A stretch of 64,000 nt of DNA from Aquirufa aurantiipilula. GTDB taxonomy: Bacteria; Bacteroidota; Bacteroidia; Cytophagales; Spirosomataceae. Of the stretch, positions 18,211-28,188 are shown one piece after another; the stretch's first letter is position 1, and each line of letters opens with the position of its first letter. The notes beneath the pieces were generated by a model. That model saw only the letters and a program-made list of their open reading frames with translations, had not been told where the DNA came from and did not search any database. The stretch is taken from contig NZ_JAANOG010000001.1 in the NCBI RefSeq assembly GCF_019923745.1, positions 186,001 through 250,000 on the forward strand. Reading direction: 5' to 3'. Position numbers and translations under genes: made by a program.

Positions 18211-21200
18211 GTGCATAAACATTTTGCATCTCGTGTTCTGATTACAACATTAGCTTTTTTGCTACTTAATGGAGTAGTGGAAGGGGCTCCTGCCTATAAG
18301 AATGCATTTATTGAGGAAGACACCACTTTAGAAAAAAGTGGAAAAAGACCTAGGTTCAATTTAAAGTCCAACAATCCCTACAGCCTTTTTCCAATCCAAT
18401 CAAAATCCCCTTTTTCAATTTATTCCATCCGAGGCGCTAAGTCGGCCTTATCTTTTCAAGATCAAAATCAATTAATTCAATCCCAGCAACTAGGGAATAT
18501 TGCGGTTCAACCTGTTAGACCATTTTCATTTCAGGAATATGCAAGAGAACAAGACCGACAGGTTAATCGAAGTTTTTGGAATGCCTATTCTAAAAGTTTA
18601 GATGGAAGTAGTTCTTTGCAATCAAGAGGTTTATTCCCTAAAATAGAATTACCGCCAGCCATCGACCGTATTTTTGGTGGAAATGAGGTCTATTTTAAAC
18701 CCAATGGTAGTTTATTATTGGACATTGGTTACATGGGCCAGTTTGTGGACAATCCTGCTATTCCTGTTCAGTTGCGTTATGTAGGTAATTTATTTTTCAA
18801 TGAACAAGCTCAAATTAACTTTCAAGGTAAGATTGGTGAGAAACTTAATTTAAATACCAATTTTGATACGAAAGCTAGTTTTAACTTTCAAAATCAGCTT
18901 AAATTAAACTGGAAGACACAAGAGGAGGACATTTTACAAAATATTGAATTAGGTAATACCTCTTGGACCTTGAATTCCCAATTGATTCCTGGTGTACAGA
19001 ATTTGTTTGGTTTAAAGACCCTAATGAGGTTTGGTAATTTAGACGTAACTGTAGTTGCTGCACAGCAACGTTCCAAGCAGGATTGTATCACATTAAAAGG
19101 TGGAGCCCAAGGGAAATCCTTTGAAATACGAGCTGACCAATATGATGAAAATCGACATTTTTTCTTGTCTAGCTATTTCAGAAATCAATACGAACAAGCA
19201 CTGAAAAATGTGCCTATGTTATCTTCTGGAATTACCATTACTCGGGTAGAAGTGTACGTAACTAATAGAACGCAGAGTACGGAAACTCTTCGAAATCTAA
19301 TTTCACTTTCTGATTTAGGGGAATCAGCGCCATACAGTGCCAATAACCCAACTTTAAGTCCCATTCTTCCCAATCAGCCTGTAGATAATAAAAACAACGG
19401 ATTGTATGATAAGTTGGTCAATGATACAGAAATCAGAAAATCAGATCAAGCTTCTTATCGATTAGAATCTGCCTATAATTTACAGAGGGGAACAGATTTT
19501 GATATGTTAAAAGGGGCTAAGCGATTGAATGAAAGGGAATTTAAATTTCATCCGACCCTAGGTTATTTATCCTTGGTTTCTCCACTTAGAAACGATGAAG
19601 TACTTGCAGTGGCTTACGAATATACCTTGAATGGTAGAAAGTATAAAGTAGGTGAGTTGACCGAGGATTATCAAGCCAGGAGAGATGATGAGGTATTGGT
19701 TTTAAAAATGTTAAAATCATCAACCATCCGTAATAATTTGTACCACCCTATGTGGGATTTGATGATGAAGAATATCTATTCATTGAATACCAATGGCTTA
19801 GCCAAACAAAATTTTCAATTACGAATTGTTTACAAGGATGATGCAACAGGAATTGATAACTCCAACCTGATTGAAGGGGAAAAATTGAAAGATATCCCTT
19901 TGGTAAAAGTCTTGGGTTTGGACAAATTGAATTTTGCTGGAGATCCTCAACCAGATGGTAATTTTGATTTTGTGGAAGAATTAACCGTTGATGCTAAAAA
20001 TGGCCGTATCATTTTTCCTGTATTAGAGCCATTTGGTCGAAATTTAAAATCAAATTTTGGGCCAACTGAATCAAGTTTGGAAAGTAAATATGTTTTTGAT
20101 GAGTTGTATCGTAAAACTCAATCGGATGCTTTACAATTAGCTGGTAAAAATAAATTCTTTTTGAAAGGTTCTTTCCAATCGGGTATGGGTAGCGATATCA
20201 TGTTACCTTTTGGTGTGGAAGCTAAATCAGTTACCGTTTCTGCTGGTGGTCAATTACTTACATCGGGTACTGACTTTATTGTTGAGGGGATGTCTGGAAG
20301 GGTAAAAATCATTAATGAAAGTATTTTTTCTTCTGGTAGAGAACTAAAGATTTGTTATGAGAAACCAGATTTGTTTTCTAATCAGGTACGTACCTTATTA
20401 GGTACACGTTTGGATTATAATTTAGGTTCTGATTTCCATTTAGGTGCTACATTCCAAAACATGAGTGAAAGTCCACCTGCCTTTTTTCGTCGGGTGGCTA
20501 TTGGAAACGAACCGGTAAATAATACCTTGATAGGGTTTGATGCTAGTTTATTTCGTAAATCCATGGCACTTACTCGTGCCTTAGATGCACTACCTATCGT
20601 TTCTACCAAGGAAGCTTCCGTAATAGATTTTCAAGGTGAAGTTGCTAAACTCATACCTAACGTTAATGATCGTGTTCAAGGAAATGCCTTCATCGATGAT
20701 TTTGAGGCAGCTCGTGTGGTATATAATTTTTCCTCACAGCCAACACTTTGGAAACCAGCATCTACACCTAAAGAATTTATACAAGGTAATCCGCGTGATT
20801 TATCCTCGAATTACAAACGAGCTAAAATTTCAGCCTATAATGTGGATGCCAGTATATATGGTCAAGGTGGTTTCGGATTAGATATTCCAGGTATTGATCC
20901 CAATAAAGTCAATGCCTATGCCTATGAAAGGGTAGTTACCCCCAAAGGATTATTTCCCAATAAAGACTTCGCTAACAATATTACCAATTTGCCCCTAGGT
21001 ATATTGGATGTGGCTTATTTTCCACAGGAAAGAGGTATTTATAATTTTAATACCAATCTGACTTCTAAAGGTCTTTTGGCTGGAGATCCAAAAGGGAATT
21101 TTGGAGCTATCACTCGTGCAATCAACTCAGATACAGATTTTGATAATGCCAATGTAGAGCAAATTGAATTTTGGTTGATGAATCCTTTTGTGGCAGGAGA

Positions 21201-24200
21201 ACAAGGAAAGGTACGTGACGGGATTGTTAATAAGAATAATGAGACAGGAGGAAAACTCGTGTTTCATTTGGGAGATATTTCTGAAGATTTCATTCCTGAT
21301 GGTTTTTCTAACTTTGAAAATGGTATTCCTGCTGGTGAAAAAATTACTTCTGGGCCTTCCCAAAATGTAGAGGTTACTCAATGGGGTATAGCTCCCAAAC
21401 GACAGTTTGTAATCAATGCATTTGATAATCAAGCTGGTAGGTCCACGCAAGACGTTGGATTAGATGGCTTGTCCAATCAAATTTCAGAAGGTACAAGTGT
21501 TTCAGAAGAAACCTATTTTAAAGAGTATTTAAATCAAATTCGTAGCAAGGTTACAGATCCAGTTGCACTTACCAACATTGTTAAAGACCCTGCAGGAGAT
21601 GATTTTGACTACTACTTAAATGAGAAGTTTAACGGAACAGAAAGTTTGATTGAGCGCTATAAGAACTTTATGGGGCTTGAAAATAATTCTCCAACAACTG
21701 CTAATCCTAGTAATACCAATTTTACGGAAGCCAATAGTATGGTTCCTGATCGAGAAGACTTAAATACCGACAATACAGTGAATGAAGTAGAATCTTACTT
21801 CAAATACGAAGTTGATTTGAAACCAGGTCAATTGGAAGTGGGTAAAGGATATATTGTGGATCGTGTTACGGAGAATGGAGTCGATTGGTATTTATTTCGA
21901 ATTCCAATTAAAGATAAGCCTTCGGCAGTGGGAGGGATGAATAGTTTCAAATCCATCCGTTTTTTCCGAATGTTGTTGACCCAATTTCAAGAGCCAGTTG
22001 TATTACGTTTTGCTCAACTACAACTTTCTGGATATTCTTATCGTAAGTTTTTGGGCGATTTGGATAAGAAAAATGGGGTAGATATTCCTGAGGCTTATGA
22101 TGCCAAATTTAAAGTGTCTTCAGTTAATATAGAGGAAAATGGCCCTGCTTCTAAAGGTAGTAACACCATTCCTTATGTAGTACCACCTGGTTTTGTTCGT
22201 GATCAAGATATTACTACCATTAATAATGCTCGTTTAAATGAGCAATCGATGAGTTTATGTGTGGACAATTTACGTCCGGGGGATGCTCGTGCAGTATTTA
22301 AAAACACCAGTTTTGACTTCATCAATTATAAGCGACTTCGCATGTTTGTTTCCATGCAAAGTCAAGAACAAATCAATGGTAAAGTAGCTGCTTTTATCCG
22401 TATAGGTACAGATTTGACAGATAATTACTATGAAGTTCAATCCGTAGGTTTAACACAAACTCAAAAAGGTCAAAGTTTGGATTTAGAGATTTGGCCTATG
22501 GAAAATGAATTTGATATCGAGTTCGATTTGTTAAAACGTGCCAAAATGGAACGTGATAAACAGGGGAAATCCTTGAATGAGCGATTCTCCATTCTCATGA
22601 CTAGCTCTTCAGGAAAGCAATATAAAGTAACGGTCATGGGCCGCCCAGATCAAAGTGCTAGTATGACCATGATGATTGGAATGCGTAATATCAGCACGGA
22701 TGGACCTAAAAGTTTTTGTATTTGGGTGAATGAGTTAAGAGCCTCTGATTTTGATCAAACATCAGGAGAAGCTGCAGTAGGTAAATTAGGTTTGAAATTA
22801 GCCGATTTAGGAACTGTCATGATGAATGGAAGTTTCAAAAATTATGGTTTTGGAGGGGTTCAATCCAAAATTTCAGATCGTTCACGTGAGAATTATGTGG
22901 AATATGGTATTACAGCTAATCTAAATTTAGAGAAGTTTCTACCTGCAAGTTGGGGTTTCCGAATTCCATTTTTTATAACCTATGATAAACGCAATATTTC
23001 ACCCCAATTTGATCCTCTAGATCCTGATATTTTCTTATCAAATGCGTTGGAAACGAAGGGAGCGGCTTATGCCAAATTAGTAGAAGATAATACGGAAAGG
23101 AGAGGTTTCAACTTCACCAACGTGCGTAAAGTCAAAAGTAATTTATCCAAAAGAGCTTATTTGTGGGATTTTTCAAATTTCACTTTTTCCTATGCCTATT
23201 CGGAAATGTTAAGGTCCAGTACCATGATTCATTCCTATCAGCAGTATAGTCAGCGGGCAAGTATTTTGTATTCCTTCACGACGAATAGTGCTTTCTGGGA
23301 GCCATTTAACAAATGGAATACGAGCTCAGCTTGGTTGGATATAATCAAAGATTTTAACTTTAATTGGAAGCCAAGTTCCTTTACTGTTAGGGCAGAAATG
23401 GACCGCAGTTTTGTCAAAACCCAATTAAGAAATCAAGATTTAAATATCGTGGGTGTGGCGCCCCAATTTGAGAAATATTGGTTTTTTAATCGTCAATATG
23501 CACTCAATTGGAATTTGACTAAAAGTGTGATTCTGAATTACAACACCATGGTTAATGCCATTATAGATGAACCTTTTGGCGACATTGATACTCAAGCTAA
23601 GAGAGATTCTGTGATGAATAACATAAAGTCTTTGGGTCGAGCCAAGAATTTTGATCAGCAAGCGGGTATCGTTTGGAGATTACCACTACAAAAGCTGCCA
23701 TTAACAGATTGGATGAATGCTGATTATACTCACCGAATCGGTTATAATTATTATGCCAATTCATTTAATATTCGAGATTCTTTGAATTTGCCATTTGGTA
23801 ATATTATTAAAAACACAAGAGAAAGAGCTATTAGTGGAAAAGTAGATTTTGTATCCCTTTACAATCGAATTAGAGCTTTGCGCTGGGCTAATACCCCTGT
23901 TGCTACAGGCAAAAATGTGGCTCGAAATCCAGGTGATGAGGAGGAAATCGCCATTCCTAGTAAATCGGTTTTAAAAACCTTTGCGCGACTGTTTTTAACC
24001 TTGAGGGGTATTCAAGTGAATTATTCAGTTAACGAATCTACTACCTTACCAGGTTTCTTACAACAGCCGGGTTTGTTTGGATTAAACGGAAATACCTCTG
24101 CTCCAGGTTTGGATTTTGTCAGTGGTGGACAGGATGATGGTATTCGATTTAAAGCAGCTCAAGAAGGTTGGTTAACCAAAAGTACTGTACAAAATGTACC

Positions 24201-25332
24201 TTTTACCCAATTGAGAAACACAAAATTTAGCTACATAACGCAGTTAGAACCTAATAAAGATTTACGTATTCAGCTTGAAGGAAATTACAACCGAGGTGAT
24301 AATTACCAAGAGTTCTTTAGGCCAACTTCGGTAGGAGGAAAATTTGTTAGCCAGAATCCCTTGCGCTCAGGTAATTATTCCATGTCATTCTTATCATTCT
24401 TGACAGCATTTAAAGATCCTCAATTGGTTTTTGATGAATTTAAGAGTAATCGTGAAGTTCTATTAGCTCGATTGAATCGTGCCAAAGCAGCGGATGGCAG
24501 TTATAATATCAATTCCCAAGACGTATTAATCCCATCCTTTTTTGCAGCATATTCAGGTGTTTCTGCTCAATCTGTTAAGTATTCGCCATTTTATGATATC
24601 CCACTTCCCAATTGGAAAGTTGATTATAATGGGATTAATTTGATGCCTTGGTTGAAGAAGAAATTCAGTTCTTTCACAATTACACACATGTATTCAAGTA
24701 CCTATAATGTGGGTAATTTTATTTCATCTCTGGAATATGGGCAGTTTGAAAATGATTACGTTAACCTTACTTTGAATAGTTTATTGTATCCATTATCATC
24801 TCGCTTTGATCCTAAAACCAATACCTTAATTCCAGTATATGTGATGAGTACCATTTCATTCTCTGAAAGATTCTCTCCATTAATTGGTTTTAATGCCATA
24901 ACTAAAAGTCGAGTTTCATTGCGTTTGGAATACAATCAAGATCGAAATGTAGGTTTGAATTTATCAAATTCTCAAGTAGCTGAATTGTCTAATAAGGATT
25001 TTACTGTGTCCATTGGCTTTACGAGAGCGAATATGTTAATTCCATTTAAGATCAATGGAGCATTCGTTCGATTACCAAATGATTTAAGGTTTAACATGAA
25101 TTTAACCATACGGGATACGAGAACCCTACAGAGGAAATTGGATGCTGAAACGATTGTAACGCAAGGATTTATCAATTTTCAATTCAGGCCTCAGATCACT
25201 TATTCCATCAATAATAAATTATCGGTTACCGCTTATTTTGATAAGATGATGAATAATCCCTTGGTTTCTAATTCATTTTACCGCTCTACAGTGGCAGGAG
25301 GATTCCAGATACGATATAGTTTATCAGAATAG
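18211..25332 (+). CDS. sprA: T9SS outer-membrane translocon SprA (Sov)
   Basis: A 2373-residue protein matching SprA/Sov, the giant 36-strand beta-barrel that forms the T9SS pore in the outer membrane. It starts with GTG and a signal peptide (LITTLAFLLLNGVVEGAPA, about residues 8-27). Long stretches of alternating beta-strand pattern rich in N, F and Y follow throughout, and the C-terminus ends in an aromatic outer-membrane strand (VAGGFQIRYSLSE). Length is typical of the family (about 2400). It sits between ruvA and gcvH, the neighbourhood known for this gene. It works with PorV and Plug, which gate the barrel, and with the GldKLMN motor complex, absent from the window. Secreted cargo and possibly gliding adhesins would pass through it. 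Confidence 0.95.
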   Translation: MHKHFASRVLITTLAFLLLNGVVEGAPAYKNAFIEEDTTLEKSGKRPRFNLKSNNPYSLFPIQSKSPFSIYSIRGAKSALSFQDQNQLIQSQQLGNIAVQPVRPFSFQEYAREQDRQVNRSFWNAYSKSLDGSSSLQSRGLFPKIELPPAIDRIFGGNEVYFKPNGSLLLDIGYMGQFVDNPAIPVQLRYVGNLFFNEQAQINFQGKIGEKLNLNTNFDTKASFNFQNQLKLNWKTQEEDILQNIELGNTSWTLNSQLIPGVQNLFGLKTLMRFGNLDVTVVAAQQRSKQDCITLKGGAQGKSFEIRADQYDENRHFFLSSYFRNQYEQALKNVPMLSSGITITRVEVYVTNRTQSTETLRNLISLSDLGESAPYSANNPTLSPILPNQPVDNKNNGLYDKLVNDTEIRKSDQASYRLESAYNLQRGTDFDMLKGAKRLNEREFKFHPTLGYLSLVSPLRNDEVLAVAYEYTLNGRKYKVGELTEDYQARRDDEVLVLKMLKSSTIRNNLYHPMWDLMMKNIYSLNTNGLAKQNFQLRIVYKDDATGIDNSNLIEGEKLKDIPLVKVLGLDKLNFAGDPQPDGNFDFVEELTVDAKNGRIIFPVLEPFGRNLKSNFGPTESSLESKYVFDELYRKTQSDALQLAGKNKFFLKGSFQSGMGSDIMLPFGVEAKSVTVSAGGQLLTSGTDFIVEGMSGRVKIINESIFSSGRELKICYEKPDLFSNQVRTLLGTRLDYNLGSDFHLGATFQNMSESPPAFFRRVAIGNEPVNNTLIGFDASLFRKSMALTRALDALPIVSTKEASVIDFQGEVAKLIPNVNDRVQGNAFIDDFEAARVVYNFSSQPTLWKPASTPKEFIQGNPRDLSSNYKRAKISAYNVDASIYGQGGFGLDIPGIDPNKVNAYAYERVVTPKGLFPNKDFANNITNLPLGILDVAYFPQERGIYNFNTNLTSKGLLAGDPKGNFGAITRAINSDTDFDNANVEQIEFWLMNPFVAGEQGKVRDGIVNKNNETGGKLVFHLGDISEDFIPDGFSNFENGIPAGEKITSGPSQNVEVTQWGIAPKRQFVINAFDNQAGRSTQDVGLDGLSNQISEGTSVSEETYFKEYLNQIRSKVTDPVALTNIVKDPAGDDFDYYLNEKFNGTESLIERYKNFMGLENNSPTTANPSNTNFTEANSMVPDREDLNTDNTVNEVESYFKYEVDLKPGQLEVGKGYIVDRVTENGVDWYLFRIPIKDKPSAVGGMNSFKSIRFFRMLLTQFQEPVVLRFAQLQLSGYSYRKFLGDLDKKNGVDIPEAYDAKFKVSSVNIEENGPASKGSNTIPYVVPPGFVRDQDITTINNARLNEQSMSLCVDNLRPGDARAVFKNTSFDFINYKRLRMFVSMQSQEQINGKVAAFIRIGTDLTDNYYEVQSVGLTQTQKGQSLDLEIWPMENEFDIEFDLLKRAKMERDKQGKSLNERFSILMTSSSGKQYKVTVMGRPDQSASMTMMIGMRNISTDGPKSFCIWVNELRASDFDQTSGEAAVGKLGLKLADLGTVMMNGSFKNYGFGGVQSKISDRSRENYVEYGITANLNLEKFLPASWGFRIPFFITYDKRNISPQFDPLDPDIFLSNALETKGAAYAKLVEDNTERRGFNFTNVRKVKSNLSKRAYLWDFSNFTFSYAYSEMLRSSTMIHSYQQYSQRASILYSFTTNSAFWEPFNKWNTSSAWLDIIKDFNFNWKPSSFTVRAEMDRSFVKTQLRNQDLNIVGVAPQFEKYWFFNRQYALNWNLTKSVILNYNTMVNAIIDEPFGDIDTQAKRDSVMNNIKSLGRAKNFDQQAGIVWRLPLQKLPLTDWMNADYTHRIGYNYYANSFNIRDSLNLPFGNIIKNTRERAISGKVDFVSLYNRIRALRWANTPVATGKNVARNPGDEEEIAIPSKSVLKTFARLFLTLRGIQVNYSVNESTTLPGFLQQPGLFGLNGNTSAPGLDFVSGGQDDGIRFKAAQEGWLTKSTVQNVPFTQLRNTKFSYITQLEPNKDLRIQLEGNYNRGDNYQEFFRPTSVGGKFVSQNPLRSGNYSMSFLSFLTAFKDPQLVFDEFKSNREVLLARLNRAKAADGSYNINSQDVLIPSFFAAYSGVSAQSVKYSPFYDIPLPNWKVDYNGINLMPWLKKKFSSFTITHMYSSTYNVGNFISSLEYGQFENDYVNLTLNSLLYPLSSRFDPKTNTLIPVYVMSTISFSERFSPLIGFNAITKSRVSLRLEYNQDRNVGLNLSNSQVAELSNKDFTVSIGFTRANMLIPFKINGAFVRLPNDLRFNMNLTIRDTRTLQRKLDAETIVTQGFINFQFRPQITYSINNKLSVTAYFDKMMNNPLVSNSFYRSTVAGGFQIRYSLSE

Positions 25333-25791: not shown

Positions 25792-25819
25792 AAAACCCTG
25801 ATTTTCAGGGTTTTTTTTT
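25792..25819 (+). terminator. Intrinsic terminator after gcvH
   Basis: A 10-bp perfect stem (25792-25801 with 25805-25814), 3-nt loop and nine consecutive T (25811-25819). Confidence 0.93.
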
Positions 25820-25831
25820 AGACCAAAAACC

Positions 25832-27115
25832 ATGCGCATTTTATTTAAGTCCGTTTTAATTTTAGATAGTACTTCCACATATTTTCAACAAAAAGTTGAT
25901 TTATTGGCAGAAAATGGAATTTGGAAGGAATTAGCTCCTTCAATTACTAGTTCTGTTGATACCCAAGTTGATTGTGAAAATTTGAGTTGGTATCCGTCTG
26001 TAATTGATCTTCGAGTGCATCATACTTTACCAGGAGGGGAATTTAAGGAAGATTGGAATTCCCTAAAATCAGCGGCAATTCGTGGTGGGGTTCTGGATAT
26101 GGCGCTTTTACCAACAGGTAATCCAGTGCCGCAACAAGCCGAAGCAATTCAATTTATTGCCAATCAAACAACCGAAGTTTCTTTTTATCCAATTGCCCCA
26201 TTAACATTGGATAACAAAGGAGAGAACTTTACCGATTTATACGATTTACATCAGGCAGGGGCGGAGTGGTTTAGTCACGGTGCTGGGTCATTACAGAATA
26301 CGGATTTGATGGTCAAATGTTTGCAATATCTTCAAACTTTACCTGTTACTTTAGTCACTAGACCCAATACGGAAGGTTTATCTCTGTATGGACAAATTCA
26401 TGAAGGACTTCAAAGTACCCTAATGGGTTTAAAGGGTATACCCGTTTTAGCTGAAACTTTATCCATCAAGCGAGACTTAGATTTATTGAGATATGTACAA
26501 AGCAACAGTTTTGGCAATGGAAATAAAGAATTTAAGCTTCATATTTCCTGCCTTTCTTGTCAGGAATCGGTAGATTTAATCCGTCAAGCAAAAAAAGAAG
26601 GTCTGCCCGTTTCAGCTGATGTGGCAATTCACCAATTGATATTCACAGAGTCAGATGTTTCAGACTTTGATACAAATAAGAAAGTGAATCCTCCGTTTAG
26701 AACTCAAGAAGATCAGGATGCACTTTGGAAGGGTCTTGTGGATGGAACCATTGATGCTATTGTATCAGATCACCATCCAGTAGAAGTGGAAATGAAGGAA
26801 ATCGAATTTGACCAGGCAAGTTTTGGCGTAGTTGGTTTAGAAACTTTGTTGCCAGCCCTTTTACAAGCTGCCAAACTAAGAAATATTCAGTCAGTGGATA
26901 CTTGGATTCATCATGGTCCAGCCAAATTGTTGGGTATAGATTCAGCCCAATTGGCTGTAGGAAACCCTTCTAAAGGTGTTTTGGTCGCCCTTAAGAATCA
27001 AGAATATGAGGCATCTCAAATTGTAAGTAAATCTAAAAATTCTGCATTTTTAAATCACACATTTGATCATCAGATAGTGGGCGTGTTAAACGGTACTTTT
27101 TATACCTCTTTTTAA
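25832..27115 (+). CDS. Dihydroorotase homologue lacking most metal ligands (PyrC'-like)
   Basis: A 427-residue amidohydrolase-fold protein clearly related to dihydroorotase (IDLRVHHTLPGGEFKED; NPPFRTQEDQDALWKGLVDG; SFGVVGLETLLPALL). The zinc-site residues are mostly replaced. The HxH motif reads R61-V-H63, the FTDDG loop reads FSHGAG (149-150), the next zinc histidine position is R177 (TRPNTEG), and the HxSTxES histidine is C240 (LHISCLSCQES). The substrate-binding LREPG arginine and MPNT asparagine are also changed (HTLPG, LPTG). D313 of the catalytic SDH motif remains. It is therefore probably not a dihydroorotase; known inactive PyrC' proteins serve as partners of aspartate transcarbamoylase. 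It begins just after the gcvH terminator and is 1 bp from the next gene. Confidence 0.8.
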   Translation: MRILFKSVLILDSTSTYFQQKVDLLAENGIWKELAPSITSSVDTQVDCENLSWYPSVIDLRVHHTLPGGEFKEDWNSLKSAAIRGGVLDMALLPTGNPVPQQAEAIQFIANQTTEVSFYPIAPLTLDNKGENFTDLYDLHQAGAEWFSHGAGSLQNTDLMVKCLQYLQTLPVTLVTRPNTEGLSLYGQIHEGLQSTLMGLKGIPVLAETLSIKRDLDLLRYVQSNSFGNGNKEFKLHISCLSCQESVDLIRQAKKEGLPVSADVAIHQLIFTESDVSDFDTNKKVNPPFRTQEDQDALWKGLVDGTIDAIVSDHHPVEVEMKEIEFDQASFGVVGLETLLPALLQAAKLRNIQSVDTWIHHGPAKLLGIDSAQLAVGNPSKGVLVALKNQEYEASQIVSKSKNSAFLNHTFDHQIVGVLNGTFYTSF

Positions 27116-27116
27116 T

Positions 27117-27638
27117 ATGTTTTTACACCTAAAACGACTACCCGAATTACTTGTAGTGGCTTTACTTGCTTTGGGATTGATCCTCGTTTATTGCTATATT
27201 TTAGATCAAAACGGTATTATTCCAATTGGAGGTAAAAAGGCTCCTAGCTATGTGATTGTCTTATTTTTTCAATGGTTTTTAGTTCAAAAAGGTGTGAAAC
27301 ATAGGGGGAATCAATCCATACATTTTTTGCATTTATTTGTATATCAATATGCCTTTGTCATCATCGTTGGTATATTAAGTTTTAGTTTTTTTCATTGGTT
27401 TTTTCAATCAAGTGCTGGTTTAGATTTATTAAATGAATATATTCGATTAAACTTGTTGGAACTATCTCAATATCAAAAGGTTATAGTTCAGCAGGAAGGT
27501 CAAAATTATTACTTAGAATTGAAAAATAGTATTTCTCAGATTAATGCTTTTAGCATTGCCAAAGATGACTTTTTTCAAAAAATAGCTTTATCTTTTTTAC
27601 CCAATCTACTTATTTCATTATACTACAAACGTTCTTAA
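27117..27638 (+). CDS. Four-helix membrane protein, possibly DUF4199-like
   Basis: A 173-residue integral membrane protein. Four hydrophobic segments are visible at about residues 10-32, 42-58, 70-98 and 150-170, with a polar stretch of about 45 residues between the last two. This topology equals that of the DUF4199 protein encoded next to it, but I see no strong sequence signature, so relatedness is a guess. It lies 1 bp after the dihydroorotase homologue and 4 bp before the DUF4199 gene, so all are probably cotranscribed. Function unknown. Confidence 0.6.
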   Translation: MFLHLKRLPELLVVALLALGLILVYCYILDQNGIIPIGGKKAPSYVIVLFFQWFLVQKGVKHRGNQSIHFLHLFVYQYAFVIIVGILSFSFFHWFFQSSAGLDLLNEYIRLNLLELSQYQKVIVQQEGQNYYLELKNSISQINAFSIAKDDFFQKIALSFLPNLLISLYYKRS

Positions 27639-27642
27639 ATCT

Positions 27643-28188
27643 ATGGAAAATCAATCCGAATCTACCCCTTCATCGTCCCTAATAGCTTTAAAATGGGGAT
27701 TAATTGGAGGGACACTAAGCTTTTTATTTACTTTATTAACCAAGTACACTGGATTAGAAGATCAATTTTCTGAGTCACTTGGGTGGATTACTTTTTTAGC
27801 CACTTTAGTTATTGATACATCTATTCTATTTCTTACTCTGAAAGAATTTAGAGAGCAAAATGGTGGTTTTTTAGGATATAGCCAAGGTTTAGGTGTTTCT
27901 AGTTTATTGGGTGCAATTTGGGGCTTGGTTTCTGGCGCCTACAATTATATTTATTTGAATTTCATTGACCCAACCGTCCTTCAAAAACAATTGGATATTG
28001 CACGTGAAAAGATGGAGGAGCAAGGCTTAAGTGAAAGTCAAATCTCAGAAGCCATGAAAGTTTCCTCCATGATGATGGGGCCTGGTGTACAATTTGTTTT
28101 GATCGTTTTGATGTCGACCTTATTCTTATTTTTATTAGGCTTAATTGTTTCAGCTATTTTAAAGAAGGAAAAACCATTTTTTGAGTAA
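27643..28188 (+). CDS. DUF4199 domain membrane protein
   Basis: A 181-residue membrane protein with the family pattern: helix 1 (LKWGLIGGTLSFLFTLLT), helix 2 (ITFLATLVIDTSILFLTL), the conserved FREQNGGFLGYSQGLGVS turn leading into helix 3, a soluble loop with an amphipathic helix (IAREKMEEQGLSESQISEAM), and helix 4 near the C-terminus. DUF4199 is a Bacteroidota family without a known function. It is packed between a similar small membrane protein and the gldF-like permease, suggesting a role at the inner membrane. Confidence 0.8.
   Translation: MENQSESTPSSSLIALKWGLIGGTLSFLFTLLTKYTGLEDQFSESLGWITFLATLVIDTSILFLTLKEFREQNGGFLGYSQGLGVSSLLGAIWGLVSGAYNYIYLNFIDPTVLQKQLDIAREKMEEQGLSESQISEAMKVSSMMMGPGVQFVLIVLMSTLFLFLLGLIVSAILKKEKPFFE

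Follow-up and report, generated by a model that had tools for sequence, protein, structure and literature searches.

A gene in a 64,000-nucleotide stretch of the Aquirufa aurantiipilula genome (the window) encodes a class-I dihydroorotase (DHOase) homologue, P0001, whose metal site has been dismantled. We consider that this protein is probably a dead DHOase retained in aspartate transcarbamoylase (ATCase, PyrB) as a structural subunit, similar to the Pseudomonas PyrC' (pDHO) but encoded away from pyrB. The best reading of the sequences is that such pseudo-dihydroorotases (pseudo-DHOs) are ancient and class-wide in Bacteroidia and arose separately from the alphaproteobacterial form.

The reading frame opens with ATG and contains 427 codons with no internal stop. 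By sequence, P0001 is a class-I DHOase, with the enzymes of B. anthracis, Thermus, S. aureus and Aquifex as its top PDB matches. The metal-ligand positions were read against the solved class-I DHOases 3mpg, 2z00, 3gri and 4bjh and against 17 metal-intact PyrCs from sister classes. P0001 retains two of the six ligands, H63 and D313, and the other four are replaced by R61 (formerly His), G150 (Asp), R177 (His) and C240 (His) (Table 1). The original prediction of a DHOase homologue with a dismantled metal site is borne out by this comparison, as all six ligands are present in all 17 of the fetched PyrCs. Its assignments of H63, D313, R61, R177 and C240 stood, and the pair H149/G150 was refined: the ligand Asp (D153 in Aquifex) corresponds to position 150, now Gly, while H149 stands for the adjoining conserved Asp. 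Substrate-binding residues had also been described as altered, and P0001 indeed carries T65 for Arg, T95 for Asn and V317 for His at positions that are R, N and H in 17/17 metal-intact PyrCs. These are the R of HxHxR, the N of MPNT and the H of DHAPH, functional residues of a catalytic class-I DHOase. Taken together, the residues suggest a pseudo-DHO without a metal site, which is expected to be non-catalytic.

Table 1. Features of the pseudo-DHO gene and of the intergenic region upstream of it (positions in the window)
Feature	Position	Strand	Remark
Terminator-like hairpin and T run, gcvH/pseudo-DHO intergenic	25792..25814	+	Consensus match; number in region no more than chance
Pseudo-dihydroorotase CDS (PyrC'-like)	25832..27115	+	427 aa; matched in 61/61 genomes of Spirosomataceae
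Former HxH metal motif, now R-V-H	26012..26020	+	Codons 61-63
Former D-D(ligand), now H-G	26276..26281	+	Codons 149-150
Former ligand His, now Arg	26360..26362	+	Codon 177
Segment after lost His177, loop-A equivalent by position	26372..26461	+	Codons 181-210
Former ligand His, now Cys	26549..26551	+	Codon 240
Catalytic-site Asp, kept	26768..26770	+	Codon 313

P0001 did not reach the cut-off of any of the 25 NCBIfam models listed for it, and Pfam at an E-value of 0.1 assigned no family to it. The telling model is TIGR00857 (dihydroorotase; 225.7 for P0001 versus a cut-off of 279.05), because the metal-intact PyrC L201 passes it and, like P0001, misses the narrower PRK cut-offs. TIGR00857 was passed by both pseudo-DHOs of other families that were checked (L226, 368.8; L044, 281.3), in which the metal site is absent. 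The AlphaFold model of P0001 (pLDDT 94.3, pTM 0.93) has the DHOase barrel fold, and a structure search with it returned class-I DHOases as the best PDB matches, in agreement with the earlier claim that fold and length were intact. The model superposes on 2z00 with a Z-score of 54.1, and on 3d6n_A, the Aquifex DHO from a crystal of its complex with ATC, with a Z-score of 51.6 (414 residues, rmsd 2.3).

The named loci closest to the pseudo-DHO locus are those of Aquirufa species and one Cytophagaceae MAG, with identities of up to 84%. The idea that metal-site loss is limited to one species or family was rejected, since the loss is class-wide: 254 of 296 sampled Bacteroidia genomes matched P0001 at E≤1e-50, and all but one of them (G132, which carries a metal-intact PyrC instead) are pseudo-DHO genomes, 253 in number. 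A low-threshold re-search covered 24 of the 42 genomes without a match, namely all 11 with a PyrB at E<1e-100 and 13 of the other 31, and revealed very diverged pseudo-DHO copies in six (G374, G430, G524, G539, G552 and G585). The remaining 18, 13 of them with PyrI, stood outside the re-search; G289 and G297 (with PyrI) and G155 had earlier been searched at E≤1e-10. A further genome first counted as lacking the gene, G368, has a diverged metal-less copy, read from the DNA, behind a BatA-like gene, which brought the total to 260. Five f71/g195 genomes with a close PyrB but no match at 1e-50 had appeared to be exceptions, as had G585, and all six carry very diverged pseudo-DHOs. One f71/g195 copy, L188, is 25% identical to P0001, and its model reached a pLDDT of 77.9 and a pTM of 0.85. 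Weak matches in G385, G400, G413 and G534 were rejected as pseudo-DHOs and proved to be the 2gwn-type DHOase described below.

Among 158 distinct Bacteroidia pseudo-DHOs, a set rich in Spirosomataceae in which the fragment L186 is gapped at one ligand column, 19, 84, 39 and 16 sequences hold zero, one, two and three of the six ligands, respectively; for 58 representatives below 60% identity the numbers are 13, 20, 15 and 10. No ligand is invariant, and the retained subsets differ by lineage. In a large quick tree, 51 pseudo-DHOs were monophyletic (SH-aLRT 100), and a smaller, careful tree agreed, with 13/13 in one clade (100/100). The careful tree placed the alphaproteobacterial PyrX in a clade of its own, with metal-intact PyrCs branching off between it and the Bacteroidia pseudo-DHOs. 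The metal site was therefore lost separately in PyrX, and inactivation occurred at least twice. The phylogenetic check proposed with the original prediction, a comparison with PyrC'-type proteins, was thus carried out for the alphaproteobacterial form, from which the Bacteroidia lineage is separate.

The same genome encodes a 2gwn-type DHOase at C1:57828-59162, which scores 691.8 bits in the PRK09236 equivalog model (cut-off 535), and has pyrB on another contig, at C51:35056-35970 (401.9 versus a cut-off of 263; 305 residues). A second DHOase and a pyrB had both been proposed as things to look for. The former means that the condition named as fatal to the prediction, P0001 being the sole DHOase of a prototroph, does not apply. 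No PyrI was found in the host genome. Among solved structures, the ATC from the Aquifex DHO-ATC complex matches the host PyrB best, but it leads stand-alone ATCases such as 2at2 and 3r7d by only a small margin (199 versus 188 bits). The 2gwn-type DHOase is present at E≤1e-40 in 288 of the 296 Bacteroidia genomes, including most of those without a pseudo-DHO. It accompanies the pseudo-DHO in 249 of 253 genomes, the exceptions G371, G420, G487 and G561 being unexplained. The other four genomes without it are G132, in which a metal-intact PyrC adjoins PyrB, and G226, G382 and G411, in which no PyrB was found. In three of eight 2gwn-type copies viewed (the host copy L005, L195 and L200), Gln replaces the first His of the HxH motif (IDDQVHFREPG); the His is kept in L197, L281, L283, L284 and L285.

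A close PyrB (E<1e-105) was found in 249 of the 254 genomes with a match to the pseudo-DHO versus 10 of the 42 without one (Fisher p 7e-29). After the partial re-search, the counts for PyrB at E<1e-100 became 255 of 260 and 5 of 36, respectively (p 1e-31). The counts from before the re-search give the fairer picture, because the re-search was uneven (11/11 genomes with a close PyrB, 13/31 of the others) and the genomes are related, and for the latter reason both p-values overstate independence. The mismatches comprise, on one side, G375, G397 and G470, in which the PyrB match is weak or split, and G464 and G368, in which no PyrB was found; on the other side, a close PyrB is present and no pseudo-DHO was found in G527, G532, G534, G573 and G579. 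Assembly gaps may lie behind the cases in which one of the two genes was not found. PyrI occurs in 15 of the 296 genomes, all of them among those without a pseudo-DHO (0/260 versus 15/36).

The identity of PyrB itself changes with the presence of the pseudo-DHO. Used as a query, the host PyrB was 68-95% identical to its counterparts in 27 other genomes with a pseudo-DHO, versus 35-41% in eight pseudo-DHO-less genomes of f6 and f11 and 46% in G132, and it had no match in G226. In the PyrB tree, whose sample excluded the f82 PyrBs (E 1e-88 to 1e-94), 28/28 PyrBs of pseudo-DHO genomes formed one clade (99/96) and those of f6, f11 and G132 were placed elsewhere. PyrB has thus been replaced three separate times, in f6, f11 and G132, each time in a lineage without a pseudo-DHO. 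Since the 2gwn-type DHOase persists in 288 of the 296 genomes, most of the pseudo-DHO-less ones included, it is PyrB that changes with the pseudo-DHO. G132, which is Hymenobacter-like by its PyrC motifs, has its pyrB beside the metal-intact pyrC (L182/L265), and a 2gwn-type DHOase was not found there at E≤1e-40. In the searched assembly of G226, of the same genus, PyrB, the pseudo-DHO and the 2gwn-type DHOase were all unfound. Plasmids of Hymenobacter volaticus and H. canadensis carry pyrB adjoining a pyrC with 6/6 ligands (L268, L269); a purK-type gene lies on the former and purE and a purK-type gene lie alongside the pair on the latter. Of the 17 sister-class loci fetched, 6 have pyrB beside a metal-intact pyrC, and no pyrB was found in the flanks of the fetched pseudo-DHO loci. 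The suggestion that P0001 is a non-catalytic ATCase partner of the PyrC' type is supported by these observations, which, together with the separate DHOase, amount to sequence-based evidence of co-occurrence and co-replacement.

It is unlikely that the pseudo-DHO is still a DHOase, or another cyclic amidohydrolase with fewer or different ligands, that backs up the 2gwn-type enzyme. D313 is retained in 128 of the 158 relatives and the arginine of P-P-x-R in 153, yet no pseudo-DHO holds more than three ligands, none of which is invariant, and the subsets are lineage-specific. The mean modal-residue frequency, 0.51 over the whole protein, rises slightly in the DDG, H240 and DHxP segments (0.58-0.60) and to 0.65 in P-P-L-R, whereas the HxH segment (0.50) and that around H177 (0.40) do not exceed the average; in the metal-intact PyrCs, the same two segments stand at 0.90 and 0.75 versus 0.68 overall. 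Missing ligands are no proof of inactivity, because a Pseudomonas PyrC paralogue lacking the conserved zinc ligands is reported as active in the available text of PMC2770081. Both of the other-family relatives that were checked pass the dihydroorotase model. A separate DHOase is nevertheless at hand in 249/253 pseudo-DHO genomes. Codons 181-210, which by our own placement are the likely positional counterpart of loop A of Aquifex DHO, include G187, G199, G202, P204 and E208, all invariant or nearly so in the alignment; the frequency for this segment is only slightly raised and unstriking (0.56 versus 0.51).

The gene is flanked in the window by gcvH and DUF4199, as expected from the earlier remark that the neighbourhood is unrelated to pyrimidines. 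In 80 named Cytophagales loci, mostly from the window's family, gcvH was found in 73, DUF4199 in 74 and an ABC-2 permease in 72. Two tandem genes of the DUF4199 family (27117-28188) follow the pseudo-DHO gene with intergenic gaps of 1 and 4 bases, and the first of them scores below the Pfam cut-off (20.2 versus 32.3). A 2373-residue ORF with a GTG start (18211-25332) looks like the type IX secretion protein SprA.

Outside the window's family, many Bacteroidia have, just upstream of the pseudo-DHO gene, a gene for a BatA-like protein of ~680 residues with an N-terminal two-TM domain (BatA/TIGR02226). It was present in the flank in 17/20 loci (immediately upstream in 16), 22/27 and 14/23 loci; the loci with this gene lie within L221-L240, L034-L060, L171-L190, L216-L218, L267 and L280. 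It is still found upstream of the extremely diverged copies, namely the five of f71/g195 (L188, L189 and L216-L218), whose genomes retain a close PyrB, and that of G368 (L280), in which no PyrB was found. In Rufibacter it overlaps the pseudo-DHO gene by 17 bases, and a 12.5-kb record of Rufibacter tibetensis labelled plasmid 2 (L267) holds the pseudo-DHO and BatA-like genes along with two of the DUF4199 family and two for glycosyltransferases. This frequent adjacency, which extends to Rufibacter and G368 and was seen beside none of the 17 metal-intact pyrC genes, could mean that the pseudo-DHO is a partner of the two-TM protein in some envelope process that has nothing to do with pyrimidines. 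We regard that as improbable, since the BatA-like gene is missing from the 1.5-kb flanks of 22/22 loci of the window's family and from 78/80 named Cytophagales loci, where the pseudo-DHO is conserved too, and since such a partnership leaves the match with one PyrB lineage unexplained. There is likewise only a slight chance that in many Bacteroidia the two roles are combined, such that the ATCase scaffold would also link to the upstream-encoded membrane protein and thereby tether or control the first committed step of pyrimidine synthesis at the envelope.

We also compared how match scores covary among the three proteins. The partial covariation between the pseudo-DHO and PyrB was 0.27-0.30 and fell to 0.10 when the five most diverged families were left out, whereas that between the pseudo-DHO and the 2gwn-type DHOase was 0.47-0.61. 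The covariation is not specific to PyrB and was therefore dropped as support for a PyrB partnership. The stronger signal, together with the presence of the 2gwn-type DHOase in nearly all pseudo-DHO genomes, could be taken to mean that the pseudo-DHO is a non-catalytic partner of that enzyme, for example in a hetero-oligomer, rather than of PyrB. This is very unlikely, as genomes without the pseudo-DHO keep a little-changed DHOase (1e-167 and 7e-171 in two of f6, 1e-113 to 1e-137 in five of f11), while it is their PyrB, unlike the 2gwn-type DHOase, that has been replaced.

The dN/dS values of the pseudo-DHO gene against two Aquirufa orthologues were 0.069 and 0.059 (three further pairs were saturated), compared with 0.011-0.027 for the neighbouring gene lpxA (three pairs) and 0.036-0.089 for gcvH (five pairs). 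The gene is clearly constrained, less so than lpxA. That it is a decaying, functionless gene specific to Aquirufa, as the long Aquirufa branch in the pseudo-DHO tree and the extra changes T65, T95 and H149 might suggest, is hardly credible, because purifying selection of this strength already contradicts it, as do the match in every family genome and the complete, confidently predicted fold.

The pattern of co-occurrence and replacement is what dependence of PyrB on the pseudo-DHO predicts, and we therefore read the pseudo-DHO as a pDHO-like ATCase scaffold. We infer that it binds PyrB and has no DHOase activity: pseudo-DHO dimers would hold PyrB trimers together, with a stoichiometry modelled on the dodecamers of Aquifex DHO-ATC and Pseudomonas pDHO-ATCase, and PyrB would depend on them for a stable, active ATCase. 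As to the probable order of events, the ancestor would have had pyrB and an active class-I pyrC, a pair that some sister-class genomes still carry side by side. In Bacteroidia, catalysis may then have passed to a second dihydroorotase, the 2gwn-type enzyme, and PyrC may have lost its metal site while being retained because PyrB depended on it. Separation of the pseudo-DHO gene from pyrB would have followed.

If this reading is true, ATCase works with a dead-enzyme partner in most members of a major bacterial class, while a different enzyme performs the DHOase step. The same subunit would have been inactivated in Bacteroidia and, separately, in alphaproteobacteria, which makes it a testable case of an enzyme becoming a scaffold: the metal site was lost where another DHOase was at hand (in nearly all genomes), and the scaffold is gone where PyrB was swapped. 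Annotation is affected as well. The Rufibacter tibetensis protein WP_062546243.1 has 0/6 ligands and is annotated as dihydroorotase; such names in records, together with passes in TIGR00857, may put a protein that is not an enzyme into metabolic models and target lists as if it were one. Among the open-licence literature matches listed, a scope that leaves subscription journals outside, no study of a pseudo-DHOase of Bacteroidota was found.

According to the available text of PMC7053772, class A2 ATCases consist of PyrB and an inactive DHOase, and the P. aeruginosa PyrB, a 37-kDa chain with an N-terminal extension, is monomeric and inactive until pDHO joins it. Like the pDHO of Pseudomonas aeruginosa and P. 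putida (PyrC', PyrX), P0001 is a ~45-kDa DHOase homologue without zinc ligands whose host genome encodes a separate DHOase. It differs in that its gene is apart from pyrB, that the host PyrB has 305 residues rather than the extended 37-kDa chain (same text), and that PyrB binding is putative here, as judged by co-occurrence. As in class A2 pseudo-DHOs, the homologue is full-length and metal-less, and a separate DHOase and a PyrB without PyrI are present, but the gene does not lie beside pyrB and the inactive form is not shared by descent with the alphaproteobacterial PyrX. The latter also lacks the metal site (0/6 in the Sinorhizobium sp. M103 and Shinella copies) and retains P-P-L-R, but has pyrB nearby, whereas the Bacteroidia pseudo-DHO does not. 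In S. meliloti, smc01361 adjoins pyrB, and its disruption causes pyrimidine auxotrophy, as the available text of PMC5929573 describes. The inactive DHO-like domain of fungal CAD-like proteins (5nnl) likewise combines the DHOase fold with missing zinc ligands (PMC7053772, in its available part), but it is eukaryotic, fused with ATCase and only a remote sequence match to P0001 (1.7e-4). In the Aquifex aeolicus DHO-ATC complex (3d6n, 4bjh) the fold is shared, but the Aquifex DHO retains its ligands, of which P0001 has two of six; these are H61, H63, D153, H180, H232 and D305 in the accessible portion of PMC3880350, which also states that DHO activity arises on ATC binding and that loop A is displaced upon it.
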